Source: Shouchella patagoniensis (lineage in GTDB: Bacteria > Bacillota > Bacilli > Bacillales > Bacillaceae_D). Taken from it: a stretch of DNA of 64,000 nt. Below the pieces are notes generated by a model. It saw nothing but the letters and a program-made list of their open reading frames with translations, had not been told where the DNA came from and did no database searches. The position numbers were made by a program, and so were the translations under genes. The stretch covers positions 1,920,565 to 1,984,564 of the forward strand of contig NZ_KV917377.1 in the NCBI RefSeq assembly GCF_002019705.1, in the 5' to 3' direction. Positions 1-53,033 of the stretch are shown here, in pieces (the stretch's first letter is position 1; each line of letters opens with the position of its first letter).

Positions 1-493
1 TTGGTGGAATCCGTAACGTCAACTCATTTCCTTGTGCAGTAATATCAGGTTCACTCGAATACGCACCGATTATAAAATCCTCTTGTTCATTAAATACTTG
101 TGTTGCGAAAATCCCTCCGCTATGAGGAACATAAACAATTGGGGTATCATATTCTTGAACAAGCCTTCGTGCGTTCGCTCCAGTTTCATTAGGCAAATAT
201 TGGTCATCTAGAGTGACTAAATTAAACGAATACATCTGTCCATCTACTTCAAATCCGCCAGCTTCATTAATTTCGTTAATCGCCATCGTCAACCCACTTG
301 CTGCATTTTGTCCATAGAATGCAGCGGCTCCAGATAACGGCCCGCTGAAACCAAGATTGATTACTTCGGTTCCGACCACTTTTTCGATCGCTTCACCTTG
401 TTCTTCATTGTCTCCCCCAACAATTGTGTCATCGCCGATACATCCAACAAGCAAACCAATAGCACCTACAACAGTAAACAGCATTCTCTTCAT
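1..493 (-). CDS. Branched-chain amino acid-type ABC transporter substrate-binding lipoprotein (partial, C-terminus beyond window)
   Basis: Extracellular solute receptor for the Liv-type importer encoded just upstream in the same direction. The reading frame stays open from the ATG at 493 to the window edge. It starts MKRMLF, continues with a short hydrophobic stretch, and has an LVGC lipobox with the lipidated Cys at residue 18. The mature start is followed by INLGFSGPLSG, the usual opening of periplasmic-binding fold type I (LivK/HAAT) receptors, and later by GGFEVDGQMY and TLDDQYLP, which also fit that family. Only about 164 residues are visible of an expected 390-420. It is the last visible gene of the operon that begins with the acyl-CoA ligase, so the ligand may be an organic or acyl acid rather than leucine. 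The ligand is inference. Confidence 0.88.
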   Translation of the reverse strand, partial: MKRMLFTVVGAIGLLVGCIGDDTIVGGDNEEQGEAIEKVVGTEVINLGFSGPLSGAAAFYGQNAASGLTMAINEINEAGGFEVDGQMYSFNLVTLDDQYLPNETGANARRLVQEYDTPIVYVPHSGGIFATQVFNEQEDFIIGAYSSEPDITAQGNELTLRIPP

Positions 494-514: not shown

Positions 515-1222
515 TTATGCCCCAATATACGCTTTTTTAACAGCTTCATTTGCAAGCAACTCTTCCCGTGTCCCTTCAACTACCATGCGACCATTCTCAA
601 TCACATAACCACGATCGGCGATTCGAAGAGCTGCATTTGCATTTTGTTCTGCTAGTAATACTGTTGTGCCTTGCTGATTGATTGTCCGGATCACTTCAAA
701 AACTTGTTCGACAATAAGAGGAGCGAGACCTATTGAAGGTTCATCAAAAAGAACAAGCTTTGGTTTTGACATCATCGCTCGCCCAATTGCGAGCATCTGT
801 TGTTGTCCACCACTTAATGAACCTGCCTGAGCATCTTTCTTTTCTTCTAGTATCGGAAAGAGTGCGTAAATTTCAGAAAGTGATTCTTGTAGTTGCTGTT
901 TCTTCGGTCGCAATGCATAAGCGCCCATACGTAGATTTTCATAAACACTCATTGCTGGAAACAAATTTCTTCCTTCAGGACAATGACCAATACCTTCCTG
1001 TACAAGCTTACTAGCGGACTTTCCACCAATTGCTTTTTTATTCCATGTAATCATTCCTGATGCTGGTTTAGAGAGTCCACTAATACTCCTAAAAATCGTA
1101 CTTTTCCCTGCGCCATTAGCTCCCAGCAAAACAACTAATTCACCTTGTTCAACATGGAGGGAGATATTAGATAACACTTCATACATACCATATCGAACCG
1201 ATACTTCATTCAGCATCAGCAT
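515..1222 (-). CDS. livF: Liv-type ABC transporter ATP-binding protein LivF
   Basis: One of the two ATPases that drive the Liv-type importer at the inner face of the membrane. Walker A GANGAGKST lies at about residues 34-42, the signature LSGGQQQ near residue 135 and Walker B LVLFDEPS near 157. The C-terminal region carries the LivF-like EQNANAAL switch. The frame is open to 1252, but I start at the ATG at 1222 (MLMLNEV) because GGAGGAGG precedes it at good spacing and the length (235 aa) then fits LivF. This start overlaps the end of livG by 17 bp, so translation is probably coupled. A start at 1216 is also possible. Confidence 0.92.
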   Translation of the reverse strand: MLMLNEVSVRYGMYEVLSNISLHVEQGELVVLLGANGAGKSTIFRSISGLSKPASGMITWNKKAIGGKSASKLVQEGIGHCPEGRNLFPAMSVYENLRMGAYALRPKKQQLQESLSEIYALFPILEEKKDAQAGSLSGGQQQMLAIGRAMMSKPKLVLFDEPSIGLAPLIVEQVFEVIRTINQQGTTVLLAEQNANAALRIADRGYVIENGRMVVEGTREELLANEAVKKAYIGA

Positions 1223-1982
1223 AGACGTTGCCTCCTCCGAGATAGGCTTCAATTACCGCTTCATTTTTTTGAATCTCCGCTGGAGTACCTTCTGCAATTT
1301 TCCGGCCGTAATTAAGGACGACAATACGGTCAGCTAGACCCATAATCATCTGCATCTTATGTTCAATCAAACAAATAGTCAGCCCTTTCGCGGCCATTTT
1401 ACGAATGTATTCTGCAAGCTGAACGGTTTCTTCTGGATTAACACCCGCGGCTGGTTCATCAAGAAAGACGATCTTCGGATCTGTTGCAAGTGCAAGTGCA
1501 AAGGCTGTACGTTTTTTTGCCTCCTGAGAAATATCACCTACGAGGCGTTCTGCTTCTTTTTCTAAGTCTAGAAACGCAAGCATCTCTTGGGCTTTCTCTC
1601 TAGCAGCCGCTTCTTCTCTCTTTAAACGAGGGGTTCGAAATACCGCATCAGCAACCCCCGATTTCGTTCGCAACCGATGACCAATAATGACGTTGTCAAG
1701 GACAGTTGAATGCTCAAATAAATTTGTTGTTTGAAATGTACGGGCTATACCAAGCTTCGCGTTATGGTACGGACGATTTTTCGTTATGTCTAGACCATCA
1801 AATAGTACTTGACCCTCGCTAGCTCTGTAGTAACCACTGATAACATTAAATAAAGTTGATTTCCCAGCACCATTAGGTCCGATAATTGCTGTGATTTTCC
1901 CTTCTTCAATTGTGAGATCGACTTCATTGACCGCTATTAGCCCCCCAAATTTTTTGGTCAGCCTTTTTGTCTCGATCAGCAT
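1206..1982 (-). CDS. livG: Liv-type ABC transporter ATP-binding protein LivG
   Basis: Second ATPase of the importer. Walker A GPNGAGKST is at residues 35-43, Walker B IVFLDEP is followed by AAGVNPEE, and the H-loop IEHKM is intact. The C-terminus has the LivG-type extension ending in YLGGGN. The ABC signature is odd: where LivG normally has LS(Y/G)GQ the protein reads GDISQEAKKR. Because LivF keeps a perfect LSGGQ, one of the two composite ATP sites may be degenerate. The start ATG at 1982 abuts the livM stop at 1983, as in a tightly packed operon. Membership of the HAAT family is clear. The effect of the altered signature is inference. Confidence 0.92.
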   Translation of the reverse strand: MLIETKRLTKKFGGLIAVNEVDLTIEEGKITAIIGPNGAGKSTLFNVISGYYRASEGQVLFDGLDITKNRPYHNAKLGIARTFQTTNLFEHSTVLDNVIIGHRLRTKSGVADAVFRTPRLKREEAAAREKAQEMLAFLDLEKEAERLVGDISQEAKKRTAFALALATDPKIVFLDEPAAGVNPEETVQLAEYIRKMAAKGLTICLIEHKMQMIMGLADRIVVLNYGRKIAEGTPAEIQKNEAVIEAYLGGGNVYADAE

Positions 1983-2981
1983 TTACGGTCCCCCCTCATA
2001 AGTTGACTTGTTATGTGAATCTGTCGTGCTTTTATTCATTTTTTTTATTTTGCGCTTCCGTTTCCACGCAGCATAACCACCTACAATTCCACGGGGGTAA
2101 AAAATGACAAGCAGCACAAGTAACGGACCAAAAACAATCATCCGGTATTCTTCCATAAACTGAAGCGACTGCGTCAATAACACGATTAGAAGAGTACCCA
2201 CAACTGGACCGAACAACGTGCCGAAACCACCTACGAGCGCATAAGTGAGCATATCGAATGTGACCATCGTATAGGAAATATTCGGTCCAATAAATCGCAC
2301 AACTGATGCATACAAAACACCAGCAAGAGCAGCAAAGAATGTAGAGGTGACAAAGGAAACAAGCTTTTGACGCATCGTGTTAATCCCAATCGTTTGCGCG
2401 AGCTCTTCGGAATTTCGAATCGCTATATACGTGCGTCCTACAAGCGATTCTGTTATCCATTTCATAAAAATCACTGTACCTACTAGAAATACAAGCACAA
2501 GATAATACAGCGCTTGACTGTTTTCAAATTGAATTGGACCAATAGCACCTGGTGCTGGAATTCCAATTAAGCCACGAACACCACCCGTAAATTCATCCCA
2601 TTGGTAGATAATTAAATAAATGATGTAACCGACACATAATGTGTAAATGGCAAAAAAGTGTTCTTTCGTACGGAGAGCAATTAAACCAACAAGTAAGCCA
2701 ATTATTGTTGTGATAACTAAGGCAAGCATAAAAGCAAGCCAATAAGACATTCCAACCTTTACAGTAAGCAGTCCTACCGAATAAGCTCCGATTGCAAAGA
2801 AACCAGCATGTGCCAATGAAAGTTGCCCTGTATATCCGCTAATTAAATTCATTCCATATACACCAATTGTCCAGACAAAGGATATCGTCAAAATATATAG
2901 ATAGTATTGATTGTCAGTCACCAATGGTATGAGGAGAGCGAGTAATAAAAAGATGAGTGGCAGTATATTGTCCTTCAACAT
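1983..2981 (-). CDS. livM: Liv-type ABC transporter permease LivM
   Basis: Membrane-spanning subunit of the importer, with about nine to ten hydrophobic segments and the LivM hallmark YTGQLSLAHAGFFAIGAY in the first third, followed by GALRTKEHFFAIYTLC-like and GGFGTLFGPVVG motifs. The frame is open up to 3005, but the ATG at 2981 (MLKDNILPL) is preceded by GGGGG at nine bases and gives 332 residues, which fits the family. With this start the ATG sits two bases before the end of the livH stop codon, so translation is probably coupled. The C-terminal tail is basic and hydrophilic. Confidence 0.92.
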   Translation of the reverse strand: MLKDNILPLIFLLLALLIPLVTDNQYYLYILTISFVWTIGVYGMNLISGYTGQLSLAHAGFFAIGAYSVGLLTVKVGMSYWLAFMLALVITTIIGLLVGLIALRTKEHFFAIYTLCVGYIIYLIIYQWDEFTGGVRGLIGIPAPGAIGPIQFENSQALYYLVLVFLVGTVIFMKWITESLVGRTYIAIRNSEELAQTIGINTMRQKLVSFVTSTFFAALAGVLYASVVRFIGPNISYTMVTFDMLTYALVGGFGTLFGPVVGTLLIVLLTQSLQFMEEYRMIVFGPLLVLLVIFYPRGIVGGYAAWKRKRKIKKMNKSTTDSHNKSTYEGGP

Positions 2982-2982
2982 G

Positions 2983-3849
2983 TTACGCTGCCCCCTTCTT
3001 TGCAAAAAGTCCTTTTGGCTGAATCGTCAAGATAATGACTAGTAATGCAAAGGCGATTAAATCACTATAGTCACTTGAAATAAACGTGGCCCCAAGACTT
3101 TCAGAGAAACCAAGGATGTACCCGCCAATAATTGCACCAGGAATACTCCCCATCCCGCCGATAATAATAATGACAAACGCTTTCAAGATAACAAGATGCC
3201 CCATACCGGGGAAAACCAAATTAATTGGCGATGCAATCGATGCTGCAATTGCTGCCAAAGCCCCAGAAATAAAGAAAGTGAGCATCGCAACTTTATTGGC
3301 ATTAATCCCTACAAGAAAAGCCCCTTCTCTATTTTGTGACATCGCCACAATCGCCGCTCCAATCAACGTCTTCTTTAAAAACAATTGCAAAAGCACCATT
3401 ACAACAACCGCAGCTACGACGATTAGAATACGCTGTACGGTAACCGTTATCCCAAGAAAAGATACAACTTCACCAAAAGGCGTTGACATTGCGCGATATT
3501 CTGCACCCCAAACAAGTTGAACAAACGTTTCTAAGAATAACAACACACCAATAGCAGCGATTTTATCGTGGATTGGTGGAGAATGGCGCAGAGGGTGAAA
3601 CACAAGTCGTTCCATTAATAAGGCAACAAATCCAACAATTAAAATAGAAACAAACATCGCTAAAAAATAAGGGAAGCCAAAAGCTGCCATTGTCATGAGG
3701 GTGACATAACCACCTAGCATATACAAAGCCCCGTGTGCAAAGTTCGGGATATGCAAGATTCCATACACGAGCGTTAAACCTAAAGCAACTAAACTGTAAA
3801 CGCTTCCAATCGTTAACCCATTAAATAGTTGTTGCAGGAGAATATCCAT
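2983..3849 (-). CDS. livH: Liv-type ABC transporter permease LivH
   Basis: First permease of the Liv-type importer: 288 residues, about eight membrane segments. Family motifs are the N-terminal NGLTIGSVYSLVALGLTLVYG, the HGALYMLGGYV segment and the C-terminal IIIGGMGSIPGAIIGG loop that contacts the ATPases. It begins at an ATG 31 bases downstream of the acyl-CoA ligase stop, with a GAGGTGAATAA-type ribosome site in the gap. No separate promoter is visible, so it is probably transcribed from the sigma-54 promoter at 5476-5491. The ligand specificity of Liv-type permeases cannot be read from sequence. Confidence 0.92.
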   Translation of the reverse strand: MDILLQQLFNGLTIGSVYSLVALGLTLVYGILHIPNFAHGALYMLGGYVTLMTMAAFGFPYFLAMFVSILIVGFVALLMERLVFHPLRHSPPIHDKIAAIGVLLFLETFVQLVWGAEYRAMSTPFGEVVSFLGITVTVQRILIVVAAVVVMVLLQLFLKKTLIGAAIVAMSQNREGAFLVGINANKVAMLTFFISGALAAIAASIASPINLVFPGMGHLVILKAFVIIIIGGMGSIPGAIIGGYILGFSESLGATFISSDYSDLIAFALLVIILTIQPKGLFAKKGAA

Positions 3850-3880: not shown

Positions 3881-5437
3881 TTAGTTCTTTATTTGCGCTC
3901 TTACTAGCTCGCGCTTTAGAATTTTTCCAACTGCTGTCTTTGGCAATTCTTTGATAAACGCAATTTGCTTTGGAATTTTAAATGCTGCTAGATGTTGTTT
4001 GCAATGCTCGACAATATCCTCTTCGGATAATTGACTTCCTTGTTTTTTTACGATAAAAGCTTTTACTGTTTCACCTCGATATTCGTCAGGTACACCAATC
4101 ACTGCCGCTTCTTGTATCCCTTCCATTCGGTACAAAACATCTTCAATCTCAATTGGATAAACATTGTAACCACTTGCGATAATCAACTCTTTTTTCCGAC
4201 CAACAATATAAAAGTACCCATCTTCATCTCTTCTCGCTAAATCTCCAGTAAAAAGCCAACCGTTTCGAAGAGCATTTGCCGTTTCTTGTGAGAGGTTATA
4301 ATACCCTTTCATAATTTGCGGGCCTCGAATAATCAACTCACCAACTTCATTTGCTTTAAGTTCCTGCTCCGTTGCAATATCAACAATTTTAGACTCTGTA
4401 TTTGGTAGTGACACCCCAATGCTACCTGCCTTTTGTTTTCCTTGGAGTGGATTCCGGTGAGTAACAGGTGATGCTTCTGATAATCCGAACCCTTCTAAAA
4501 TTGTTGTTCCAGTCAATTCATTAAACTGACGCATCACCTCAACTGGCATCGGCGCTGAACCACTCGTGCACACATTTAACATCGACAAATCCATGTGATG
4601 CTTGCGGAAATAATCGAGTAAGGCAATATACATCGTCGGTACACCTGGAAAACTTGTTGGTCTGTACATTTCAATTGCCTTAGCGGTCTCTTCTACATCG
4701 AAACGAGGCAGAAGAATCATATTCCCACCAAGAAACAACGTTAAGTTCATTGCACTTGTCATGCCGTACACATGAAAGAGGGGGATTATGGTTAGCACAC
4801 GTTCGCTTCCTTCTCCTTGATTGCTTTCTTGAGTTGCTGCAGTTTGCAATGTATTCGAAACGAGGTTGTAATGCGTCAACATCGCCCCCTTCGATCGCCC
4901 AGTTGTACCGCCTGTATATTGAATGACAGCTACATCTTCGACGGGGTCCACTTCTTCAGGCTTCTTCAGTGGAATTGAGTTTAAAAGCAGATCAAATGAC
5001 CCTGAACCTTCAAAAGAAACAGCAGCTACAAGTATTACTTGTGTTTCATTTTTGATTACTTCATAAACAGGTACTAACTGATCAAGCATGATGATCGCTT
5101 TCACTTCCGCGTCTTTTAGCACATGAGCTAATTCTGCAGGTTTATAAAGCGGATTAATTTGAACAACTGTTGCTCCAAGATACAGAGTCGCAAAATAGCT
5201 AATAACATATTGGGGACAATTGGGTAGCATTAATCCAATGCGATCCCCTTTGTTCACTCCTTGCTCTGCTAATCCTGTGGCAACACGCTTACTCAAGTCA
5301 AATAACGTTTCATACGTAAATGTCTTACCAGCAAATGTTATTGCAACATTGTCCTTATACGTTGTTACACTTTCCATCATCATCTCGATTAACGTTTGTT
5401 CTGGTAATTCAATCGATTTATAATGAAACACCGCCAT
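3881..5437 (-). CDS. Acyl-CoA synthetase (AMP-forming), FadD/LvaE-like
   Basis: Activates a carboxylic acid to its CoA thioester using ATP. The 518-residue ANL-family enzyme has the P-loop YTGGTTGRSKG at residues 174-184, the adenylate-binding EGFGLSEASP, the hinge region GDLARRDEDGYFYIVGRKKELI, and the C-terminal catalytic lysine K505 in TAVGKILKREL. It is the first gene after a sigma-54 promoter and is followed by the Liv-type importer, so uptake and CoA activation of the same acid are probably coupled. In the Pseudomonas Lva system the equivalent ligase is LvaE. The substrate chain length is unknown. AGGGAG upstream supports the ATG at 5437. Confidence 0.9.
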   Translation of the reverse strand: MAVFHYKSIELPEQTLIEMMMESVTTYKDNVAITFAGKTFTYETLFDLSKRVATGLAEQGVNKGDRIGLMLPNCPQYVISYFATLYLGATVVQINPLYKPAELAHVLKDAEVKAIIMLDQLVPVYEVIKNETQVILVAAVSFEGSGSFDLLLNSIPLKKPEEVDPVEDVAVIQYTGGTTGRSKGAMLTHYNLVSNTLQTAATQESNQGEGSERVLTIIPLFHVYGMTSAMNLTLFLGGNMILLPRFDVEETAKAIEMYRPTSFPGVPTMYIALLDYFRKHHMDLSMLNVCTSGSAPMPVEVMRQFNELTGTTILEGFGLSEASPVTHRNPLQGKQKAGSIGVSLPNTESKIVDIATEQELKANEVGELIIRGPQIMKGYYNLSQETANALRNGWLFTGDLARRDEDGYFYIVGRKKELIIASGYNVYPIEIEDVLYRMEGIQEAAVIGVPDEYRGETVKAFIVKKQGSQLSEEDIVEHCKQHLAAFKIPKQIAFIKELPKTAVGKILKRELVRAQIKN

Positions 5438-5475
5438 TTGATCACTCCCTCTTTAGAATGAGTTACTAACCTATT

Positions 5476-5491
5476 AGCAATTTCCATGCCA
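5476..5491 (-). promoter_or_regulatory. Sigma-54 (SigL) -24/-12 promoter of the ligase-liv operon
   Basis: On the minus strand the sequence reads TGGCATGGAAATTGCT. It matches the consensus TGGCAYRNNNNTTGCW at the essential -24 GG and -12 GC with exact spacing. Transcription would start about 12 bases downstream, near 5465, which leaves a short leader before the ATG at 5437. A gene for a sigma-54 activator lies directly upstream, at 5603. Confidence 0.85.
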
Positions 5492-5584
5492 AATGAATAA
5501 AAGTGACTCGTTCACGTTTTCTATATAAACTCAATTCACTTTTGAGAGAATTTAATTGATTGAATGCAATACTGAATAATGGAC

Positions 5585-5614
5585 AAAAAAAAGCAGCTTC
5601 AATTAAGAAGTGCT
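5585..5614 (-). terminator. Terminator of the sigma-54 activator gene
   Basis: On the minus strand the hairpin AGCACTTC / GAAGCTGCT, with a 6-base loop and one bulge, is followed by eight T. The hairpin covers the last codons and the stop codon of the activator gene. Confidence 0.6.
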
Positions 5615-7255
5615 CGTAAGGCCATATTTCTTCATTTTTCTGGCAATTGTTGCTTGACTTGATTGCAAAGCCTCTGCAATTTCGTATGTTGTTTTATATG
5701 TCCGCAATGCGTCTTCAAGTAAGTTTCTTTCTGCTTGTTCAACGGTTAGTTGCAATAAACTGTTCGATTCATTTTCTGATCCCTTCGAATCTCGATATTC
5801 TTCCGGCAAATCTTCTAAACCAAGCTCATCGTTTTTTGATAAAATCATCAATCGTTGAATCAAATTAGCCAGCTCTCTTACATTCCCCGACCACCTATTC
5901 GAAAATAACAGATGTTTTAAAGGTTTTGACAACATTTTTGTCATTCCAAATGCTGCATTAAAATGATTAATATAATATTCTGCTAGCGGTAAAATATCAG
6001 CTCGTCTTTCACGTAACGGCGGAATACGAATTGGCAGGATATTAAGCCGGTAATAAAGGTCTTCACGGAATTTACCATTTTCAGCCATTTCTTTTAAATC
6101 GCGATTTGTTGCGGCTATTACTCGAACGTCAACACGCTTCGTCTTACTCCCACCAACCCGTCGAATCTCTCTATCCTGAAGGACTTGCAGTAGTTTCACT
6201 TGTAACGGCAAAGCAAGTTCACCAATCTCATCAAGAAACAAAATACCTCCATCCGCCATCTCAAACATACCCGCTTTGCCATAACGACTTGCCCCTGAAA
6301 ACGCACCAGCTTCATAACCAAATAGTTCGGATTCCATTAACTCAGCAGGAATCGCACCGCAATTCACTTTAACCAACTCCCCGTTTCGACGCGGACTTGA
6401 TTGATGGATGTGTTTAGCTAGCACATCTTTACCTACACCTGTTTCTCCTAATAGCAAAACAGTCGCATCGATTTGATTTATTCGATTTACCATTTCATGA
6501 ATGTCTGCCATTGCGCTGCTATGCAATACTGGTAACGGTGATTGATTAGAAGTGTAAATAGCGTCTGTTGGTAAACTCTCTTGTCCAAATTTGCGATAAT
6601 ACGGCAATAGCTCCGAAACATCTCGAATATTATAAATAATCTTATCAACCTCACCATTATTATTTAATAATGGTGAGCCTGTCATAACAATTTGATGGCC
6701 ATTTTTCCCCCCTTGAAAGGCGGTTGCTGGCTTCTTCGTTTTTATTATTCTTGAATACAGAGATTCTTGTAAAAAACCTCTTGTAACAAGTTTCTCTGCA
6801 CTTTTTCCTATAAAATATTCTTTTGGAATCCCCGTAAAGCGTTCAACAGAGTTATTCACTTTTAGCGTAATACCATCTGCTGTATTAATTGATATACCAT
6901 CATAAGAATGTTCTAAAATCCTATTTAATTCTTGATTTGCTTGCTTTTCGTCTTGTAGCTCTGCTTGTATCGCTTCAAATTCAGGATCCTCAATAAACAA
7001 GTGGGCTTGAAGGTTTGCCTCATTCTGATATCCCATCTTGAAATGACGCAAGAGTTGCCCTGATAAATAAAAAGACGCACCATTCTTTTCGTTTACGCAA
7101 AGTTTTTTTGTTAACTCTTTCTCTTCGGTATGATTTAATCCGTCTCTTAATTCCTGAAAACTTATACTTTCTTCTTTAATCTGACCAAATTGGTCTGTGA
7201 TTACCCACAACAAAGGAAAGTAAGAAGTCATGTCCAATAAGCGCATCGGTGCCAT
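5603..7255 (-). CDS. Sigma-54-dependent transcriptional activator (PAS, AAA+, Fis-type HTH)
   Basis: Enhancer-binding protein that remodels SigL-RNA polymerase. Residues 1-110 form a unique sensor region, and a PAS domain spans about 111-215 (EHSYDGISINTADG, then GIPKEYFIGKSAEKL). The AAA+ core has Walker A GETGVGKD at 270-277, the sigma-54 contact loop GAFSGA at 317-322 (usually GAFTGA), Walker B GILFLDE at 337-343 and the arginine-finger region FREDLYYRLN. A Fis-like HTH (YEIAEALQSSQATIARKMKKYG) closes the 550-residue protein. GGAAGGGG is placed correctly for the ATG at 7255. It sits between two operons that each have a -24/-12 promoter, so it probably controls both. The threonine-to-serine change in the loop is conservative. 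The signal is unknown; a CoA or acid intermediate would fit. Confidence 0.93.
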   Translation of the reverse strand: MAPMRLLDMTSYFPLLWVITDQFGQIKEESISFQELRDGLNHTEEKELTKKLCVNEKNGASFYLSGQLLRHFKMGYQNEANLQAHLFIEDPEFEAIQAELQDEKQANQELNRILEHSYDGISINTADGITLKVNNSVERFTGIPKEYFIGKSAEKLVTRGFLQESLYSRIIKTKKPATAFQGGKNGHQIVMTGSPLLNNNGEVDKIIYNIRDVSELLPYYRKFGQESLPTDAIYTSNQSPLPVLHSSAMADIHEMVNRINQIDATVLLLGETGVGKDVLAKHIHQSSPRRNGELVKVNCGAIPAELMESELFGYEAGAFSGASRYGKAGMFEMADGGILFLDEIGELALPLQVKLLQVLQDREIRRVGGSKTKRVDVRVIAATNRDLKEMAENGKFREDLYYRLNILPIRIPPLRERRADILPLAEYYINHFNAAFGMTKMLSKPLKHLLFSNRWSGNVRELANLIQRLMILSKNDELGLEDLPEEYRDSKGSENESNSLLQLTVEQAERNLLEDALRTYKTTYEIAEALQSSQATIARKMKKYGLTSTS

Positions 7256-7356
7256 TCACATTACCCCTTCCTGCTACTCGAAAGAAAATATGGAATTTTC
7301 TATTATTATAACGAGCTTAACACCTAAATGGAAGAGCTGTGTCCGACAGAAGAAAT

Positions 7357-7382
7357 AAACGGCCAGAGGACACGGCCGTTTT
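7357..7382 (-). terminator. Terminator of the ACAD/APH operon
   Basis: Perfect 8-bp stem AAACGGCC / GGCCGTTT with a 9-base loop. On the minus strand it is followed by TTTATTT. It lies just after the quinone oxidoreductase stop codon. Confidence 0.65.
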
Positions 7383-7387
7383 CCACG

Positions 7388-8383
7388 TTAATAATGTCTA
7401 TTCATTTCAATGATTAACTTCCCAAATGTCTGACGATCACTAAGTTGATCAAGTGCATGAATTGCTTCTTCCATCTTATACACCTTAAATAAAAGAGGAC
7501 GAACATCTCCACTTTCATACAACCCACATAGTTTTTTATGAATCTCTTTTACACCATCAGGATATAATTTTGCATAATAGCCCCAATGAACACCAATTAA
7601 TGAATAATTTTTCACAAGAGCATGGTTCATAGGGGCTTCTGAAATACTGCCCCCAGCAAAACCGATAACAAGTAATTTCCCTGCAAAAGCAATACATTTG
7701 CGCGATCGATCAAATGTATCGCCACCAACAGGGTCAAAAATCACATCAGCCCCCCGACCACCAGTTGCTTTGTTCACAAGGGGAACGAAATCGTCGTTTC
7801 GATAATCAATCACTGCATCTGCACCGAGCTCGCTACATCGTTTTGTCTTATCAGCTCCACCGGCTGTGGCAATGACATACGCTCCAGCCGCTTTGCCAAG
7901 CTGAATTGCCGCTGAACCGACTCCTCCAGCTCCTGCATGGACAAGTAATGTCTGACCTTCTTTTATATTTGCACGGTGATGGAGCGCATAATAAGCTGTT
8001 TGATACGTAATAAAAAGCGATGCTGCTTCAGGAAATGACATTGACTTTGGCACTTCGAATACACTTTCTTCTTCAACTGCATGCCATTCTGCCAACCCTC
8101 CGGCTGGCATAGTCGGTCTGGCAATAACCCGTTGATTTACTCGAAATCGACTATTGCTTCCTACCTCTGCAACAGTTCCTGCAATTTCCGAACCTGGCGT
8201 AAACGGCAACGCAGGTTTTTCTTGATAAGTACCTTGACACAACAAAATATCAAAGAAATTTAGCGCCGCTGCTTCCGTACGGATTAACACTTGCCCTTTT
8301 TTTCTTATGGGCCTCTCTTCATTTGTTCTCAAAACGAGCGCCTCTTTTGGATTGCCTAATTGTTCTACAGTCCACTTCTGCAT
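7388..8383 (-). CDS. NADPH:quinone oxidoreductase family protein (zinc-independent MDR)
   Basis: Medium-chain dehydrogenase/reductase of 331 residues. It has an N-terminal GroES-like fold (about 1-120), NADPH-binding AGAGGVGSAAIQ at 150-161 and the quinone-reductase motif DPVGGDTFDRS. The catalytic-zinc cysteines of alcohol dehydrogenases are absent, which places it with Qor/enoyl reductase-like members. It is the last gene of the operon that starts at the ComB-like gene and lies 11 bases after the preceding SDR. In this setting it could reduce an enoyl or keto intermediate of the acid pathway, but that is inference. Confidence 0.85.
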   Translation of the reverse strand: MQKWTVEQLGNPKEALVLRTNEERPIRKKGQVLIRTEAAALNFFDILLCQGTYQEKPALPFTPGSEIAGTVAEVGSNSRFRVNQRVIARPTMPAGGLAEWHAVEEESVFEVPKSMSFPEAASLFITYQTAYYALHHRANIKEGQTLLVHAGAGGVGSAAIQLGKAAGAYVIATAGGADKTKRCSELGADAVIDYRNDDFVPLVNKATGGRGADVIFDPVGGDTFDRSRKCIAFAGKLLVIGFAGGSISEAPMNHALVKNYSLIGVHWGYYAKLYPDGVKEIHKKLCGLYESGDVRPLLFKVYKMEEAIHALDQLSDRQTFGKLIIEMNRHY

Positions 8384-8394
8384 GAATGAACCTC

Positions 8395-9150
8395 CTATCG
8401 TTTAAATGCACTTGCCCCGTCATCAGCATAATAAACGTGAGCATTTAAAAAAGCAGCCTCATCGCTAGCTAAAAACAAAGCCAGTTTTGCAATATCTTCA
8501 GGCTGACCTGCCTTGCGCCGCATTTGTGCTTTTTCTATTTTTAACCACGTATCAGGATCTTTTTTCCATCCGGAAACGATATCCGTTTCGACTAAACCAG
8601 GAGCAATTGCAACAACACGTATGTTGTATTTGGCTAATTCAAGTGCCGCTCCCTTTGTCATTGATACAACCGCTCCTTTGCTCGCATGGTAAGCCAACTG
8701 ATTGCGATCAGCTATATATGCATAGATAGAAGCTGTATTGATGATAACGCCCCCGGCTTCCTTCATCGCCTCTGCCGAAGCCTTGATGCCAAAAAACACA
8801 CCGTCTTGATTAACCGAAACCGTTTTTCGATAGGCTTCAACGGATGTTTGCAATAGCGGCAAACCGTCCGTACCAATACCTGCATTGTTAAACATAATAT
8901 CTAACGCTCCGTATGTTTTTAGAGCAACCGCGACCGCCTTTTTTACTGATTCATAAGATGTCACGTTAATCAGCAAAGGTTTTGCTTTGCCGCCCAATTC
9001 TTTAATTGTTTCAGCTGTTTCATCTGCTTTTTCTAACATTAGATCAGCGCAAATAACATTTGCACCTTCTCTTGCGAATGCCAAAGCAGAAGCTTTACCA
9101 ATTCCAGACCCGGCGCCTGTTACAATTGCTGTTTTTCCAGCAAGCCTCAA
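8395..9150 (-). CDS. Short-chain dehydrogenase/reductase (SDR)
   Basis: Classical SDR of 251 residues. The cofactor loop TGAGSGIG is at 11-18, D36 after the second strand suggests NAD(H) preference, NNAG is at 88-91, and the catalytic triad is S141, Y154 and K158. It overlaps the previous SDR by 4 bp (ATGA type), so the two are translated together. Two consecutive SDRs in an operon for acyl-CoA metabolism suggest oxidation or reduction of hydroxyacyl-CoA intermediates. In the Pseudomonas levulinate pathway the SDR LvaD reduces the 4-keto group. Which of the two would be the equivalent cannot be decided here. Confidence 0.87.
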   Translation of the reverse strand: MRLAGKTAIVTGAGSGIGKASALAFAREGANVICADLMLEKADETAETIKELGGKAKPLLINVTSYESVKKAVAVALKTYGALDIMFNNAGIGTDGLPLLQTSVEAYRKTVSVNQDGVFFGIKASAEAMKEAGGVIINTASIYAYIADRNQLAYHASKGAVVSMTKGAALELAKYNIRVVAIAPGLVETDIVSGWKKDPDTWLKIEKAQMRRKAGQPEDIAKLALFLASDEAAFLNAHVYYADDGASAFKR

Positions 9151-9923
9151 GCTGTTGTACCTCCGTCTATAACGATTGTTTGACCAGTCACATAAGAAGA
9201 CGCTTCAGAAGCCAAGTAAAGTACAGCACCTTGCATATCCCGGGGCTCTCCAAGTCGGTTAAGGGGGACGGAAGCAACCATCTCCTTTTCTACTGGCGCG
9301 ATCACATCTTTTGTCATTTTCGTTGGAATAAACCCTGGCGCAATCGCATTGACTGTGATTCCATGCTTTCCCCAGCTCTTCGCTAAGTCCTTTGTTAGTG
9401 TAATGACTCCACCTTTGCTTGCATTATAACCAACCGCTTGCATCACATTGGGATCTGATCCTCTTAACCCTGCGACAGAAGCAATGTTAACGATTTTGCC
9501 TTGGACGCTATCGGCGATCATCTTTTTACCAACAGCTTTTGCCATTAAAAACGTTCCAAGCAAGTTCACATTAACGACTTTTTGAAATTTATCTGCTGGC
9601 ATTTCTTCTGGTGGCATTCCGCCCCAAGACGTGCCGCTATTATTAATTAAAATATCAATTTTCCCATATTGGTTATAAACTTCTTCTACAATACGCTCCA
9701 CATCTGCTTCATTCGTTACATCACATGCGAGAGCCATTGCATGCCCACCGCTCGCCTCTATCTGTTGTTTCACTTCTTGGCATGCAGCTTCCTTACGTGA
9801 GCAAACAACGACGTTTGCACCCGCTTCAGCTAGGGCTTGTGCCATTGCTTCTCCAAGCCCTCTCCCCCCTCCTGTTACAATTGCTGTTTTACCCGTTAGA
9901 TCAAATAATGTTTGAATACTCAT
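9147..9923 (-). CDS. Short-chain dehydrogenase/reductase (SDR), FabG/gluconate 5-dehydrogenase-like
   Basis: Classical SDR of 258 residues. TGGGRGLG is at 17-24, and the CSRKE segment after the second strand is typical of NADP(H) binding, unlike the adjacent SDR. NNSG is at 94-97, and the active-site residues are S149, Y166 and K170. The C-terminus [14 protein letters not shown] is the usual FabG-like ending. It overlaps the acyl-CoA dehydrogenase gene by 4 bp and the next SDR by 4 bp. A pair of SDRs with different likely cofactors could carry out opposite oxidation and reduction steps on one substrate, which is inference. Confidence 0.87.
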
Positions 9924-11152
9924 CTTACCGACTCCTCCCGATTTACTTGCCTTATTTTTTGTAATTCATACTTTGCAATTGCTCTCCGATGAACCTCATC
10001 TGGACCGTCCGCCAAGCGTAATGTCCTTGCATGCGCCCATGCCTTGGCAAGTAGAACATCATCGCTCACTCCAGCTCCACCAAATGCTTGAATAGCTCGA
10101 TCTATAACGTTTAACGCCATATTAGGTGCAACGACTTTAATCATTGCAATTTCTGATTTCCCTTCCTTATTACCAACCGTGTCCATCATATGGGCAGCTT
10201 TTAATGTTAATAAACGTGCTTGTTCTATTTCAATTCTCGAGTTAGCAATCCATTCACGAACAACGCCTTGTTCTCCAAGCGGTCGCCCAAATGCATTACG
10301 CTCTTCCACCCGTTTACACATATAAGCAAGTGACCTCTCTGCTACACCGATTAAGCGCATACAATGATGAATACGACCTGGCCCAAGCCTTCCTTGCGCA
10401 ATCTCAAAACCCTTTCCTACACCGAGTAAAATGTTTTCCTTTGGAACTCGGACATCCACAAACTCCACTTCCCCATGCCCATGCGGCGCATCGTCATAAC
10501 CAAAGACAGGCAAATGACGATGCACCGTTATTCCAGGTGTGTTCATTGGTACTAGAATCATTGATTGTTGTTCATGTCTCGCCGCAGTAGGATCTGTTTT
10601 CCCCATCACAATTAACACTTCACATCGCGGGTCTAGAACCCCAGAGGTCCACCATTTTCGTCCATTAATTAAATAGTCAGCTCCATCTTGCACGATCCTT
10701 GTCTCTATATTCGTTGCATCAGATGAGGCAACTTGTGGTTCAGTCATCGCAAAAGCAGAACGAATTTCACCGGCTAAAAGCGGCTCAAGCCACCTTTTTT
10801 TTTGCTCTTCAGTCCCATAACGAACAAGCGTCTCCATATTTCCCGTATCAGGTGCAGCACAATTAAACACTTCTGGTGCAAGAGGTGAACCACCCATTTG
10901 TTCACAAAGCGGGGCATACTCAACATTTGTTAAACCTGCACCATACTCACTATTTGGTAAGAATAGATTCCATAACCCTGCTCGCTTAGCTTTTGACTTC
11001 ATTTCTTCCATTACCGGAGGAATCGTCCAACGACTTTCCGCATTATTTAACTGCACTTCATAAAGAGTGACATTAGGTTCAATCACATTTTCTATAAACT
11101 GAATGACATCCGCTTCAAGCCTTTTCACTTTTTCCGAGTAATCAAAGTTCAT
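9920..11152 (-). CDS. Acyl-CoA dehydrogenase, ACAD10/ACAD11/LvaC-like
   Basis: Flavin-dependent acyl-CoA dehydrogenase of 410 residues. It carries the motif set seen in the ACAD10/11 branch: [67 protein letters not shown] and the C-terminal [10 protein letters not shown]. In mammals this domain is fused to an APH-type kinase. In Pseudomonas LvaC works with the separate kinase LvaA to turn 4-hydroxyacyl-CoA into 3-hydroxyacyl-CoA through a 4-phospho intermediate. Here the gene for an APH-type kinase lies 20 bases upstream, the same pairing. Assignment to this branch is fairly firm. Activity on 4-hydroxyacids is inference. Confidence 0.9.
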
Positions 11153-11172
11153 TGTTTTCCTCCCTTTATAAA

Positions 11173-12219
11173 TTAATTAATTTGTTTATATGCATGCTTT
11201 ATTAATACCTTTGTACGTAAATTAAATGTTCCAAACCGTGAATCAGTTGTTTGTCCTTGGTGCCAACGAAAATAGATTTGTTGGACGATAACTGCCAGCT
11301 TAAATAACGCAAACACATGATAGAATTTTAATTCAGCACAATCCCTTCCACTCTTTTTAGCATAACGTTCTACAAGCTGTCTTCTACTTAAAAACCCTTC
11401 ATTAGTCGTTATCGTAGGGAACAATTTACGCAACTCTATTGGATCTGACGGCTCTGTCCAATAACTTAAAACTACACCTAAATCAAACAACGGATCACCT
11501 ATAGTTGCCATCTCCCAATCTACAACCGCTCTTACTTCTGAAAGGTCACGAGATAATAACATATTGTTGAATTTAAAATCGTTATGAATGATCCGTGATT
11601 CACTTGAGAGAGGGATTTTCTCCTTTAACCATTTCGCCAATCCAAGATACTCAGCAATCTCATCCGTTTGTACCCGCTCATACCGTCCAATCCAACCAAG
11701 TACTTGACGTTCCATAAAACCTTCTGGTTTGCCAAAATTTCTAAGTCCAGATTGATCAGGTTCAACTTGATGCAATTCCACAAGTGTATCAATTAACAAT
11801 TCAGACACTTGTTGCCCTTTAACGATTGTTCCTTTTATATGTGCAGGAAAGTCGGCATCTAAAACAACCCCTTCACGGCGTTCCATTACGTAAAAAACCT
11901 TATCCATTACTTCCATATCCGTACCAAGTGCCAGTGGCCTTGGTGCGTAAGAAAAGAACGGGGCAAGCGAGGATAGAAAATCATATTCCCTTTTCATATC
12001 ATGTGCTTTTGGCGGTAAAGGTCCAAGTGGCGGGCGCCTTAAGACAGCTTGCCAATCGTCATTGGAAAGCAGGTAAGTTAGATTTGATGCCCCTGCTGGA
12101 AATTGACTGATTTCCAGTTTTCCTTCAGCAGGATAATTAGTAATCGCTTTCATTAAAAAACGATGTAATGCTTCATTATCCAATTCTTCACCTTGCCGTA
12201 CCGCGATTGTTTCCTCCAT
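11173..12219 (-). CDS. APH-fold kinase, ACAD10/ACAD11 N-domain/LvaA-like
   Basis: Phosphotransferase of the choline/aminoglycoside kinase fold, 348 residues. The N-lobe reads [13 protein letters not shown] at 39-51 and [17 protein letters not shown] at 59-75. The catalytic loop HNDFKFNNM is at 212-220, with D214 as likely base, and the metal-binding [11 protein letters not shown] is at 233-243. These motifs match the ACAD10/11-associated group rather than antibiotic kinases, so it is not expected to be a resistance gene. It overlaps the ComB-like gene by 32 bp and precedes the ACAD gene by 20 bp. By analogy with LvaA it would phosphorylate the 4-hydroxyl of a hydroxyacyl-CoA. No LvaB-like small protein is present. 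Confidence 0.88.
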
Positions 12220-12958
12220 CTATTTCCCCTCCCTCTATGAACGCCAATACGCCTGGATTAATTGCCTCAACAATCGATTTTGAGGCACCTATATCACTTA
12301 TAAAATCAAGCAGTTCATTCATACCATATCGGCTCATATAACGACCGACTCTGCCACGTTTAACTAGATCTTTTACAAGATTCTCATTTACTTTTTGAGA
12401 AGAAGCAAACAACGCTGCGTCATCAAACATTGAATGCTTTGTATCCAATTCTTTTATTAATAATGCAGCACATAAATAATCTTCCATTGCCATATGGCCT
12501 CCGGCACCAGAACATACAATGACCAGATCTTCTATTGCTTGTTTCTTAAGCCAACTTGCAACAGAGTGTACATTTCTTAAGTTTGCTAGTACTCGGCGCT
12601 TCGCTTTTTGTGTTTCTTGAATTGCCTTTGTTCCATTTGTTGAAAGAAAGACCAGTTCTGCCTCTTTTAATAAATCAGCTGAATAGTGTTCTGGTAAATG
12701 TCCATAATCAAATTCTGCTATTACTTTCCCTCCAAGTTCTCCACCGGTAATTACATTATCTCCGAGCGCCCTTTTCTTCACCAATGCTTCTTCGATGGAA
12801 CTAACTGGATAAATTTTCTTTGCCCCTCGCTCCATTAAATCAACTAATGTTGTCGTAGCCAGCATGACATCAATAATAATCACTGTCGCAAGTGGTAAAT
12901 GAACCTCTTCAATTTCTTCTTTAGCTAACCATAGTCGGCACGTCTTCAACTCCAACAC
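12188..12958 (-). CDS. ComB/YitC-family phosphatase (2-phosphosulfolactate phosphatase-like)
   Basis: Member of the ComB fold, 256 residues. Visible family motifs are IIIDVMLATTTLVDLM (canonical members read DVLRATTT), GGELGGK, FLSTNGT and CSGAGGHMAMEDYLCA. In characterised ComB the reaction removes phosphate from 2-phosphosulfolactate, but no coenzyme M or sulfolactate genes are nearby. The usually conserved Arg of the DVLRATTT motif is replaced by Leu, which suggests another phosphorylated acid as substrate. It is the first gene after a sigma-54 promoter and overlaps the kinase gene, so it may act on a phospho-intermediate of the same pathway. The start is uncertain: GTG at 12958 is directly preceded by GGGGG, so TTG at 12955 or 12949 is possible. 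Confidence 0.8.
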   Translation of the reverse strand: MLELKTCRLWLAKEEIEEVHLPLATVIIIDVMLATTTLVDLMERGAKKIYPVSSIEEALVKKRALGDNVITGGELGGKVIAEFDYGHLPEHYSADLLKEAELVFLSTNGTKAIQETQKAKRRVLANLRNVHSVASWLKKQAIEDLVIVCSGAGGHMAMEDYLCAALLIKELDTKHSMFDDAALFASSQKVNENLVKDLVKRGRVGRYMSRYGMNELLDFISDIGASKSIVEAINPGVLAFIEGGEIDGGNNRGTAR

Positions 12959-12982
12959 CCCCCACTGCCTTCATGTTCTTTA

Positions 12983-12998
12983 TGCAAAAAAAATGCCA
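12983..12998 (-). promoter_or_regulatory. Sigma-54 (SigL) -24/-12 promoter of the ComB-APH-ACAD operon
   Basis: The minus strand reads TGGCA, eight T, then GCA: a match to TGGCAYNNNNNTTGCA with the -24 GG and -12 GC at the required spacing. The start point would be near 12972, only about 15 bases before the putative GTG start. It is the second such promoter within 8 kb; the activator gene lies between them. Confidence 0.85.
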
Positions 12999-14680: not shown

Positions 14681-16312
14681 TTGAAACAAGAAACAATTAG
14701 CCATCTTTTACAAAAAGTCGTTGATAAGAACCCTAACGCTGAAGCACTCGTATATAAAGACTTAGACCTGAGGCTTACTTATCAGGAATTTAATGAATCC
14801 TGCCGTCAACTGGCAAAAGGATTATTTCACATAGGCATGAAGCGTGGGGATCATTTAGCGATCTGGGCTACTAACTCACCGGAATGGGTTACCACCCAAT
14901 TCGCGTCTGCAACTATAGGAGCTACGCTTGTAACCGTTAACACGAACTATCAAGAAAACGAATTAAAGTACTTACTCACTCAATCCGATACAAAAACGCT
15001 ATTTGTGATGGAAGAGTATCGTGGCACATCATATCTAGATATGCTTTACAAGCTCATTCCAGAATTAAAGACAACTCAGCCAGGAAAGCTAAAATCAGCG
15101 GCATTTCCTCACCTTGAACATGTTGTTTTTCTTGGAAAAGAACATAAACAAGGAATGTGGTTATATGAAGACATTGTTCATTTAGGGGATAACATCCCAG
15201 ATCATCTTTTAGATAATCAGACAAATGCATTGCAAGCTGATGATGTGATTAATATACAATACACTTCGGGTACAACTGGATTTCCAAAAGGAGTGATGTT
15301 AACGCACAAAAACTTAATTCATAATGCAAAAAATATCGCTGCTTGTATGGAATTATCGGAAGAGGACCGCATGTGTATCCCCGTACCATTCTTTCATTGC
15401 TTTGGTTGTGTATTAGGTATTCTTGCTTGTGTTAGTGCTGGCGCAACAATGGTTCCCGTTGTTGAATTTAATCCGGAGATCGTGTTAGAAACGGTGCAAG
15501 ATGAGGCTTGTACCGCACTCCATGGTGTACCTACAATGTTCATAGCAGAACTCAACTTACCAACCTTTTCGAACTATAACCTAACTTCTTTACGCACAGG
15601 TATTATGGCAGGTTCCACTTGTCCAATTGAAGTGATGAAAGGTGTCATAGAAAAAATGGGTGCCAAGGAAATAACAATTGCATACGGTCAAACAGAATCA
15701 TCCCCTGTTATTACTCAAACACGGGTCAACGATTCTCTTCATAGAAGAACCGATACAGTAGGACGAGCTTTACCTAACGTTGAAGTAAAAATCATTGATC
15801 CTTATACAAAACAAGAAGTTCCTCGAGGAGAACAAGGAGAACTCGTAACACGAGGGTACCATGTCATGAAAGGGTATTATAAGCAACCAGAAGAAACAGC
15901 CCGTGTCTTAAATCAAGATGGATGGCTCCATACTGGTGACCTAGCTGTCATGGATGAAGATGGTTACTGTAAGATAACCGGTCGATTAAAAGATATGATT
16001 ATCCGTGGGGGTGAAAATATCTATCCCCGTGAGATCGAAGAATACTTGTACACTCATCCAGACATTTTAGACGTACAAGTCGTTGGCGTCCCCGATCCCA
16101 AGTACGGAGAAGCAGTTTCAGCATGGATACGTTGTAAAGAAGGAAGAGTGTTATCAACGGAAGAAGTACAACATTTCTGTCAGGGACAAATCGCTCGCTT
16201 TAAAATCCCTAGTTACATTAAATTTGTCGATCACTTTCCAATGACTGCTTCAGGAAAAGTTCAAAAGTTTAAAATGCGAGAACAAATGGAAGACCATAAT
16301 AAACCTCGTTAA
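14681..16312 (+). CDS. Acyl-CoA synthetase (AMP-forming), ACSF2-like
   Basis: ANL-superfamily ligase of 543 residues that makes acyl-CoA from a fatty or other carboxylic acid. Visible are the P-loop [16 protein letters not shown], the motif [21 protein letters not shown] (adenylate binding), the hinge segment [21 protein letters not shown] and the C-terminal lysine in [11 protein letters not shown]. The pattern is closest to medium-chain ACSF2-type enzymes. The start is TTG at 14681, preceded by AAAGGGG. It stands alone, with a terminator behind it, and no sigma-54 element precedes it, so it is probably not part of the neighbouring sigma-54 regulon. Substrate unknown. Confidence 0.9.
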
Positions 16313-52097: not shown

Positions 52098-53033
52098 ATG
52101 GATATTACAACAGTTGTATTAACAATTACGACAATGGCAATCATCATCGTTTTTGGCGCAGCAATTGCAAGTAAAGTGCCAATTACAAAGGAAGCAAAGC
52201 AATTGTTTATGACTTTAATCATTAACATAGCTGTACCTTTCATTATCTTAAACGGGGTTTTTAATTCTGATATTACGGAAGGCGTTTTGCGACAAGTACT
52301 CATTATCTTCGTTGTCTCGATTCTTTTTAACATCTTCGCTGTTCTTGTAAGTCTACTTGTAGGTCGGATACTTGGTTTTGAGTGGTCTCTTGCAAAAAAA
52401 CTTGCACTACTTGCAGCAATTGGAAATACTGGATTCATTGGCATTCCCTTAGCAGCAGCAATATTTGGACCCATTGGCGGTTTACTAGCAGCTGTATTTG
52501 ATGCGGGGTTAGATGTTGTATTATTTTCACTCGGAATCTATTTACTTCAAAGCGATCAACGTTTTCACTTTAAACAATTAAAAGCACTTTTCAATTTACC
52601 CTTAGCAGCAATCCTCCTTGGTCTTTTATTTGCAATTAGCGGTCTTCACGCTCCTGTCCTTTTAAAAGATTTATCTAGTATGCTTTCAAGCCTTGCAGCT
52701 CCACTAGCAATGCTCTATATCGGCTTTTTACTTCCCCCCTTTTTCAAGAAGAGAGGAAAGATCTTTTTTCAAGAACTTTGGTACCCACTTACTATGCGAC
52801 TCGTTTTCATTCCGACCATTAGTGTTCTTATTATCGTAGCCATTCCAATGGACAATTTCCTTCAGCAGTTGTTTATCATTTTAACAGCAATGCCCACATT
52901 TATGCTTGCTACTGTATTATTTTCACGCTATACAAACGATGAAGAAAAAGCGGTTGTGACAACTGCTGTCTCGACGTTACTGTCACTCTTTACAATCCCT
53001 CTCATCGCCATTTTTGCTTCATTCTTTTTGTAA
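52098..53033 (+). CDS. AEC-family transporter (auxin efflux carrier fold)
   Basis: 311 residues, about ten hydrophobic segments in two inverted five-helix halves. ALLAAIGNTGFIGIPLAAAIFGPIGG and the QLFIILTAMPTFMLATVLFSRY segment with the helix-break prolines fit the AEC (malate/auxin efflux-like) family. GGAAGGA precedes the ATG. It is followed by an AraC-type regulator, but a long inverted repeat separates them. Known bacterial members carry malate, malonate or amino-acid-like compounds. The substrate here is unknown. Confidence 0.88.
   Translation: MDITTVVLTITTMAIIIVFGAAIASKVPITKEAKQLFMTLIINIAVPFIILNGVFNSDITEGVLRQVLIIFVVSILFNIFAVLVSLLVGRILGFEWSLAKKLALLAAIGNTGFIGIPLAAAIFGPIGGLLAAVFDAGLDVVLFSLGIYLLQSDQRFHFKQLKALFNLPLAAILLGLLFAISGLHAPVLLKDLSSMLSSLAAPLAMLYIGFLLPPFFKKRGKIFFQELWYPLTMRLVFIPTISVLIIVAIPMDNFLQQLFIILTAMPTFMLATVLFSRYTNDEEKAVVTTAVSTLLSLFTIPLIAIFASFFL

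Follow-up and report, generated by a model that had tools for sequence, protein, structure and literature searches.

Lipid peroxidation, plant lactones and biomass levulinate are sources of 4-hydroxy acids. Two described systems come closest to the locus reported here. The mammalian proteins ACAD10 and ACAD11 join a kinase to an acyl-coenzyme A (CoA) dehydrogenase (ACAD), and ACAD10 also carries a HAD domain, a phosphatase-type fold; these enzymes were reported only in 2024-2025 (PMC11342911, PMC12440821). The lva operon of Pseudomonas putida and Pseudomonas citronellolis encodes an aminoglycoside phosphotransferase (APH)-type kinase, an ACAD, a short-chain dehydrogenase/reductase (SDR), a CoA ligase and a sigma-54 activator (PMC6692424). 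We analysed a 64,000-nucleotide stretch of Shouchella patagoniensis DNA (the window; NZ_KV917377.1, positions 1,920,565 to 1,984,564), which holds an island of genes of the same classes together with a gene for a PF04029 (ComB-like) phosphatase.

Compared with ACAD10 and ACAD11, the homologous kinase and dehydrogenase, in which the catalytic Asp and the HCMR residues are kept, are encoded separately in the island; the kinase falls in a different clade and the phosphatase is of a different family. Compared with the lva operon, the island has a Liv-type importer and a beta-oxidation set of its own as well as the PF04029 phosphatase, whereas P. citronellolis has a cation/acetate symporter (PMC6692424). 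Sequence comparison makes it fairly probable that the island is a sigma-54-switched system for the catabolism of 4-hydroxy or 4-keto acids, in which the PF04029 protein would clear phosphorylated intermediates. The new part is the linkage of phosphatase and kinase.

Linkage of a PF04029 phosphatase to the kinase

PF04029 genes were found in 185 of 397 genomes sampled from the order Bacillales, and the kinase (E ≤1e-60) in 181, spread over 67 of 135 genera. Both occurred in 160 genomes, the kinase only in 21, PF04029 only in 25 and neither in 191 (odds ratio 58). The linkage extends to gene position: among the 150 kinase places listed, at least 97 had a same-strand PF04029 gene no more than 1 kb away, and at least 12 more had one within 5.6 kb. 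Of the 97 adjacent pairs, 94 have the phosphatase gene 3' of the kinase, unlike the island, where it comes first. Within a first set of 48 kinases, 33 had PF04029 within 3 kb; this set was partly hand-picked, some members for lacking a nearby PF04029 gene, and the figures from 397 genomes and 150 places are less selected. The preliminary description of the window had noted an added phosphatase; the gene is of a kind linked to the kinase in many Bacillales. Among the titles listed in a search of the open-access literature, with most subscription papers outside it, none dealt with PF04029 and this kinase or with the pathway in Bacillus.

The database name of such proteins is ComB, 2-phosphosulfolactate phosphatase. 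The window protein resembles ComB (1vr0, 2yyv, 2z0j) in sequence family, in most invariant residues and in its Pfam PF04029 match above the cut-off. ComA makes the substrate of true ComB. No PF02679 match to ComA at E 0.001 was obtained in the window's genome, the controls B. subtilis and M. jannaschii being positive. More widely, ComA above the cut-off was lacking in 135 of the 160 genomes that carry both genes and present in 15 of the 25 genomes with PF04029 only (67 genomes counted).

The residues followed the same division. An Arg, that of D-x-x-R-A-T/S, and an NSP stretch are kept in the solved ComB-type chains and in 14/14 ComA-linked copies, whereas the window phosphatase has neither and reads DVMLATTT and YGHLP at these places. 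NSP occurred in 0/44 kinase-linked copies, and their Arg column held Leu in 39, Met in 3, Ile in 1 and a gap in 1, a copy cut off there; the 44 sequences differ as strings, with at least two genes entering twice through overlapping loci (L011/L025, L013/L016). Positions conserved in PF04029 (D30, E74, T107-T110, E159, D160 and D180) were kept in 47-49 of 49 aligned rows, two of them ComA-linked. Taking Arg and NSP as the marks of ComB is our reading of the alignments. Because both are lost in the 44 kinase-linked copies and ComA is lacking in 135/160 genomes, the name ComB is probably wrong for the kinase-linked proteins.

Another 19 PF04029 copies were linked to neither gene. They comprised 7 Leu-type copies, all from kinase genomes or loci, 10 with Ser, 1 with Arg and 1 fragment. 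The Ser copies (L120-L129) form a third class with Ser for Arg, an altered TNGT stretch and an insert, from genomes without a kinase match and without ComA; these are the ten PF04029-only genomes that lack ComA. A PF04029 tree placed the kinase-linked and Leu-type copies, 51 rows, on one side of a branch with support 89/87, not starred. Two PF04029 frames beside the kinase run on into an alpha/beta hydrolase, PF07859, giving 575 aa (L085:9681-11408, genome G316; L131:12258-13985, Cytobacillus oceanisediminis), and, given an internal ATG with a ribosome-binding-like stretch, each may be one protein or two. A lactonase or esterase at this place would fit lactones as a source of 4-hydroxy acids.

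Outside Bacillales, histidine phosphatases take a similar place. Such a gene lay within 1.5 kb, on the same strand, of 18/66 kinases of a second set (Proteobacteria 13, Planctomycetota 2, Vulcanimicrobiota 2, Acidobacteriota 1). The search, which used a hidden Markov model seeded from two proteins and an RHG pattern, found none at the 48 first-set Bacillales kinases, and more may exist. The second set includes 8 Bacillota and one gene twice (L145/L239), and the 18 are the script's 19 minus L208, whose motif was judged accidental within an extended open frame. Annotated histidine phosphatases lie near the kinase in Pseudoalteromonas and Azospirillum; the Deinococcus psychrotolerans kinase has no adjacent one. 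For P. citronellolis, PMC6692424 describes a histidine phosphatase gene adjoining the lvaA homologue, and no homologue of lvaB was found within the analysed region. The window had been set apart by the lack of LvaB together with an added phosphatase; the phosphatase is there, but P. citronellolis shows both traits, so that the combination is not distinctive. Three phosphatase-type families thus occur near such kinases, none of them universally, a pattern that fits clearing or damping better than an indispensable reaction.

Dehydrogenase and kinase

The dehydrogenase had been described as ACAD10/11-type, and its sequence bears this out. Its best structure-chain match was 4hr3 (479 bits), named only as a putative ACAD, followed by ACAD11 with 467 bits, and ordinary ACADs reached at most 143 bits. 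R626, HCMR (634-637) and D753 of mouse ACAD11 have been linked to 4-phosphoacyl-CoA turnover (PMC12440821), and by alignment and spacing they correspond to R255, H263, C264, M265, R266 and D382 of the window enzyme. All six residues were found in 132/138 aligned dehydrogenases, the window's included; the other 6 read HAMR. HAMR for HCMR was seen in the ACAD11-like enzymes of L024, L026, L060, L075, L093 and L241, and in L024, L026, L060 and L093 there is also a sigma-54 activator homologue. Several phyla have loci where an ACAD11-type gene is no more than 6 kb from a kinase gene.

Among structure chains, the kinase matched 9o56 best (367 bits; named only aminoglycoside phosphotransferase), then the ACAD11 kinase domain (121 bits, 6e-34) and 3dxp (1e-32), the next match being at 2e-5. 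H212, D214, N219 and D234 are invariant in six aligned kinases, so the catalytic residues are present, and the strict kinase motif was found in 42/47 Bacillota kinases. The kinship with ACAD10/11 put forward from the sequence alone therefore stands by similarity (6e-34), but not as membership of the ACAD11 kinase clade. In a kinase tree of 120 rows, built by a quick method with support from the SH-aLRT (approximate likelihood-ratio) test only and without LvaA, the mouse ACAD11 kinase grouped with proteobacterial kinases (40 rows, 99*), as did 3dxp. The window kinase fell into a separate clade of 73 rows (98*) that holds Bacillota (54 rows, 99*, including 9o56), Deinococcus, Acidobacteria, Planctomycetes and kinases of Pseudomonas, Marinobacter and Azospirillum.

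The six outgroup rows were own-genome APH candidates on branches of 7.8-10 changes, and for five of them no APH motif was found and the longest open reading frame over the centre was taken. Such long branches leave the root unsure, and some of these five rows may be something other than the APH protein. The phylogeny against LvaA/LvaC and ACAD10/11 proposed in the preliminary description was run without LvaA, LvaB, LvaC and LvaR; it separates the window kinase from the ACAD11 clade, and the outgroup of other APH proteins is too remote for it to settle anything further. Identity to the mouse ACAD11 kinase is 30% for the window kinase, 30-38% for the kinases of its clade that were compared and 40-47% for those of the other clade. 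LvaA (Q88G01), reported as 29% identical to the ACAD10/11 kinases (PMC11342911), may belong to the clade of the window kinase, because its value sits near the first range and not the second.

Predicted sigma-54 control, distribution and layout

Two -24/-12 promoters, P1 and P2 (Table 1), had been called perfect. Against TGGCAYRN4TTGCW this applies to P2, but P1 has one mismatch, a T at the R position; against TGGCACN5TTGCW each has one mismatch. The motif alone is weak evidence: the window held 7 such matches to TGGCACN5TTGCW against a shuffle mean of 2.26 (7 was reached in 1/100 shuffles), and the whole genome held 15 matches to TGGCAYRN4TTGCW against 5 for the reversed pattern. P1 and P2 are credible on account of their place and conservation, which led us to reject chance promoters: they recur before the phosphatase and ligase genes in L016, L056 and L057, and the spacer letters differ in the last two. 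The only exact TGGCACN5TTGCW match in the window, at 52166-52181 (-), sits inside, and antisense to, a transporter-like open frame of 311 aa and was taken as chance.

We scanned 51 loci of the order for sites in the 300 nt preceding a cluster gene, allowing one mismatch. A site was present in 8/9 loci with an activator homologue vs 1/42 without, and the reversed pattern gave 0/51; in the ninth activator locus, L061, the site precedes a gene outside the cluster-gene list. The 51 loci are not independent, being partly hand-picked, with close relatives (L056/L057) and some overlap (e.g. L065/L103), and L132 and L135 were outside the scan. The activator reads GAFSGA at the GAFTGA loop. The genome has a single sigma-54 gene. 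Control by sigma-54 through a dedicated activator, as first proposed, is thus supported at the sequence level by the sites, the activator domains, the single sigma-54 gene and the co-occurrence. Such regulation is not unprecedented: in a survey of Bacilli and Clostridia, the predicted sigma-54 targets were enriched in beta-oxidation genes (PMC12316311).

The kinase is patchily distributed near the window: at E 1e-40 it was found in 10/41 genomes of the family and 3/13 of the genus. The island order with the phosphatase first was seen only in the window and in genomes G036, G267 and G074. The G036 locus (L016), from a second genome of the genus, has the same island, in which the genes for kinase, dehydrogenase, activator and ligase are fragmented; as this assembly is 86% complete, error and decay cannot be told apart. 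A frequent cluster elsewhere runs ACAD11-type, SDR1, thiolase, ligase, TetR-like, 3-hydroxyacyl-CoA dehydrogenase, thioesterase, kinase and PF04029 genes, then after others the Liv importer; parts are missing in many loci, and some enzyme names were read from sequence beyond those matched by Pfam. Other Bacillales clusters (L017; L068; L132 of Bacillus massilionigeriensis; L135 of Bacillus sp. 165) share with the island the ACAD11-type gene, SDR1 (not seen in L135), ligase, kinase and PF04029, and several loci also share thiolase and Liv importer. They differ in the TetR-like gene, assigned by eye and from the annotation of a like-placed gene and found near the kinase in 22/31 loci, and in the -24/-12 site, missing in 41/42 activator-less loci. 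The neighbourhood comparison does not support a Gram-positive version singular to the window, the kinase being in 181/397 genomes and often with a TetR-like gene.

All genes named in the preliminary description were present on the minus strand, with families confirmed by Pfam, and Pfam and coordinates agree with its placing of the activator, of the ligase with the Liv importer and of the kinase with the ACAD10/11-type dehydrogenase. Operon 1 reads from P1 (12998) through phosphatase, kinase, ACAD11-type dehydrogenase, SDR1, SDR2 and quinone oxidoreductase to the activator, and the phosphatase gene overlaps the kinase start by 32 nt. Operon 2 reads from P2 (5491) through ligase, LivH, LivM, LivG and LivF to the binding protein, so that transport is built in, as had been said. 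It extends beyond the window on the same strand (L014:440-4859) with genes for a PaaI-type thioesterase, a thiolase, a classical ACAD, an SDR, a FAS1_DH-region protein and MaoC, the last two making up a pair of MaoC-type genes; the gene beyond its far end is on the opposite strand. A second AMP-binding ligase gene adjoins the island on the opposite strand, at 14681-16312 (+).

Table 1. Features of the island in window coordinates.
Feature	Position	Strand	Basis or remark
-24/-12 promoter P1 before phosphatase-kinase operon, TGGCATTTTTTTTGCA	12983..12998	-	same place in L016, L056, L057
PF04029 (ComB-like) phosphatase, kinase-linked type	12188..12958	-	Pfam 167 bits, cut-off 26.4
APH-fold kinase, candidate 4-hydroxyacyl-CoA kinase	11173..12219	-	Pfam, structure-chain matches, motif, tree
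ACAD10/11-type acyl-CoA dehydrogenase, R255 + HCMR 263-266 + D382	9920..11152	-	Pfam, residues
SDR1, candidate 4-oxoacyl-CoA reductase	9147..9923	-	Pfam; relatives beside ACAD11-type gene in many loci
SDR2	8395..9150	-	Pfam
PIG3-like quinone/enone oxidoreductase	7388..8383	-	family match below NCBIfam cut-off
Sigma-54 activator: PAS, AAA+ with GAFSGA, Fis-type helix-turn-helix	5603..7255	-	Pfam and sequence
-24/-12 promoter P2 before ligase-importer operon, TGGCATGGAAATTGCT	5476..5491	-	same place in L016, L056, L057
AMP-forming acyl-CoA ligase	3881..5437	-	Pfam
LivH-type permease	2983..3849	-	Pfam
LivM-type permease	1983..3005	-	Pfam
LivG-type ATPase	1206..1982	-	Pfam
LivF-type ATPase	515..1252	-	Pfam
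Liv-type binding protein, N-terminal part	1..493	-	whole gene L014:4852-6057; window coordinates calculated from the position on the contig

Proposed pathway and alternative explanations

The gene content, promoter sites, residues and linkage observed likely belong to a pathway of the 4-hydroxyacyl-CoA class. Its reactions, substrates and phosphatase target, each assigned from homology, would run as follows. The Liv-type importer would take up a 4-hydroxy or 4-keto carboxylic acid, the ligase would convert it to the CoA ester, and an SDR could optionally reduce a 4-keto group. The APH-fold kinase would phosphorylate the 4-hydroxyl, and the ACAD11-type enzyme would eliminate the phosphate to give the 2-enoyl-CoA. 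Hydration, oxidation and thiolysis by the MaoC pair, SDR3 and thiolase would complete beta-oxidation, with the classical dehydrogenase serving further rounds. The PF04029 protein would most likely act when 4-phosphoacyl-CoA or the free 4-phospho acid builds up or is wrongly configured, hydrolysing it and so saving CoA and phosphate; between them, the thioesterase and the phosphatase would release CoA and phosphate that had become stalled. The two promoters would make a defined switch.

Tentatively, and at somewhat less than even chances, we propose that the PF04029 subfamily with D-x-x-[L/M]-A-T and without NSP, kinase-associated in many Bacillales, consists of 4-phosphoacyl-CoA or 4-phospho acid phosphatases, a third unrelated family so recruited. 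If this is true, then this subfamily, the HAD domain of ACAD10 and the histidine phosphatases beside such kinases in Proteobacteria, Acidobacteria and Planctomycetes would make phosphate quality control a general requirement in the breakdown of 4-hydroxy acids. The linkage questions the name of a protein found with the kinase in 160/397 sampled genomes and recasts the role of the HAD domain as a comparison across three phosphatase families; a bacterial version with separate proteins would make each step testable.

Two other explanations concern the phosphatase. It might bind and restrain the kinase without hydrolysis, by analogy with the HAD domain of ACAD10, which lowered kinase output and had negligible phosphatase activity (PMC11342911), and the 32-nt gene overlap would agree with such a partnership. 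We regard this as unlikely: the PF04029-conserved positions remain, which suggests catalysis, and histidine phosphatases, of another fold family, sit near the kinase elsewhere. That the protein is an ordinary 2-phosphosulfolactate phosphatase present by chance is highly improbable and was rejected; the Pfam match above cut-off speaks for it, but ComA was not found in the genome or, above the cut-off, in 135/160 genomes with kinase and PF04029, and the Arg and NSP found in every ComA-linked copy are lost from the kinase-linked ones.

The substrate might also differ from the one we favour. The kinase could act on another hydroxyl, for example of a terpenoid, cyclic or aromatic-side-chain acid, with the island serving that compound. 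The MaoC pair, Liv importer and second ACAD would suit bulky acids, and in Tistrella an atuA-like gene faces an ACAD11-type gene; the active-site residues, however, are those of enzymes shown active on 4-phosphoacyl-CoAs (PMC12440821), which constrains where the hydroxyl sits but leaves the remainder of the acid free, and we hold this alternative to be rather unlikely, though the strongest of the four. Still less expected than either this or kinase restraint is a Gram-positive lva operon for levulinate (C5), with the ligase as LvaE, the SDR as LvaD, the kinase as LvaA, the dehydrogenase as LvaC and the activator as LvaR. The extra classical ACAD, MaoC pair and importer, none of which is known to be needed for levulinate, set a levulinate-only reading back; the ACAD and the MaoC pair, which lie beyond the window, point to longer or different acids, and the fetched Pseudomonas loci did not resemble lva operons. 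In its favour, the same enzyme classes and sigma-54 control are described for P. putida and P. citronellolis (PMC6692424), and the 30% identity of the window kinase to the mouse ACAD11 kinase is close to the 29% of LvaA (PMC11342911).

Several observations weigh against 4-hydroxy acid catabolism with a PF04029 clearing enzyme. The co-occurrence test ignores the relatedness of the genomes, so its p-value of 1e-58 should not be read literally. PF04029 was lacking from 21/181 kinase genomes and, among the matches listed, from within 15 kb of 41/150 kinase places, so the phosphatase is not indispensable. The island phosphatases sit on a long branch, and the branch joining them to the other kinase-linked copies is supported at only 89/87. 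We know of no assayed kinase within the clade of the window kinase, which stands outside the ACAD11 kinase clade (in a tree with SH-aLRT support only and very long outgroup branches). An lva operon was sought in named Pseudomonas loci and by genus search; no fetched locus looked like one. The spread is patchy, and one of the three kinase-bearing genomes of the genus (G035) has another kind of cluster (L018). Dyads were found upstream of P1 and P2 as possible activator-binding sites, none seen to be common to both. Finally, the HAD domain of ACAD10 restrained its kinase rather than hydrolysing the product (PMC11342911), so a non-catalytic role of the PF04029 protein is possible.

Variant gene sets were seen elsewhere. 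In L235, L236, L242 and L243 a kinase lies with an SDR and a histidine phosphatase, with no ACAD11-type gene in the stretch and, in L235, an SCP2-like protein between. On plasmid pTM2 of Tistrella mobilis (L083), the ACAD11-type gene that faces the atuA-like gene is beside a putative HPr kinase/phosphorylase, which may be an alternative kinase for this step; the annotation of the stretch includes no APH kinase. An ACAD11-type gene (E ≤1e-120) was present in 116/119 sampled Pseudomonas-group genomes (G422 and 118 more).

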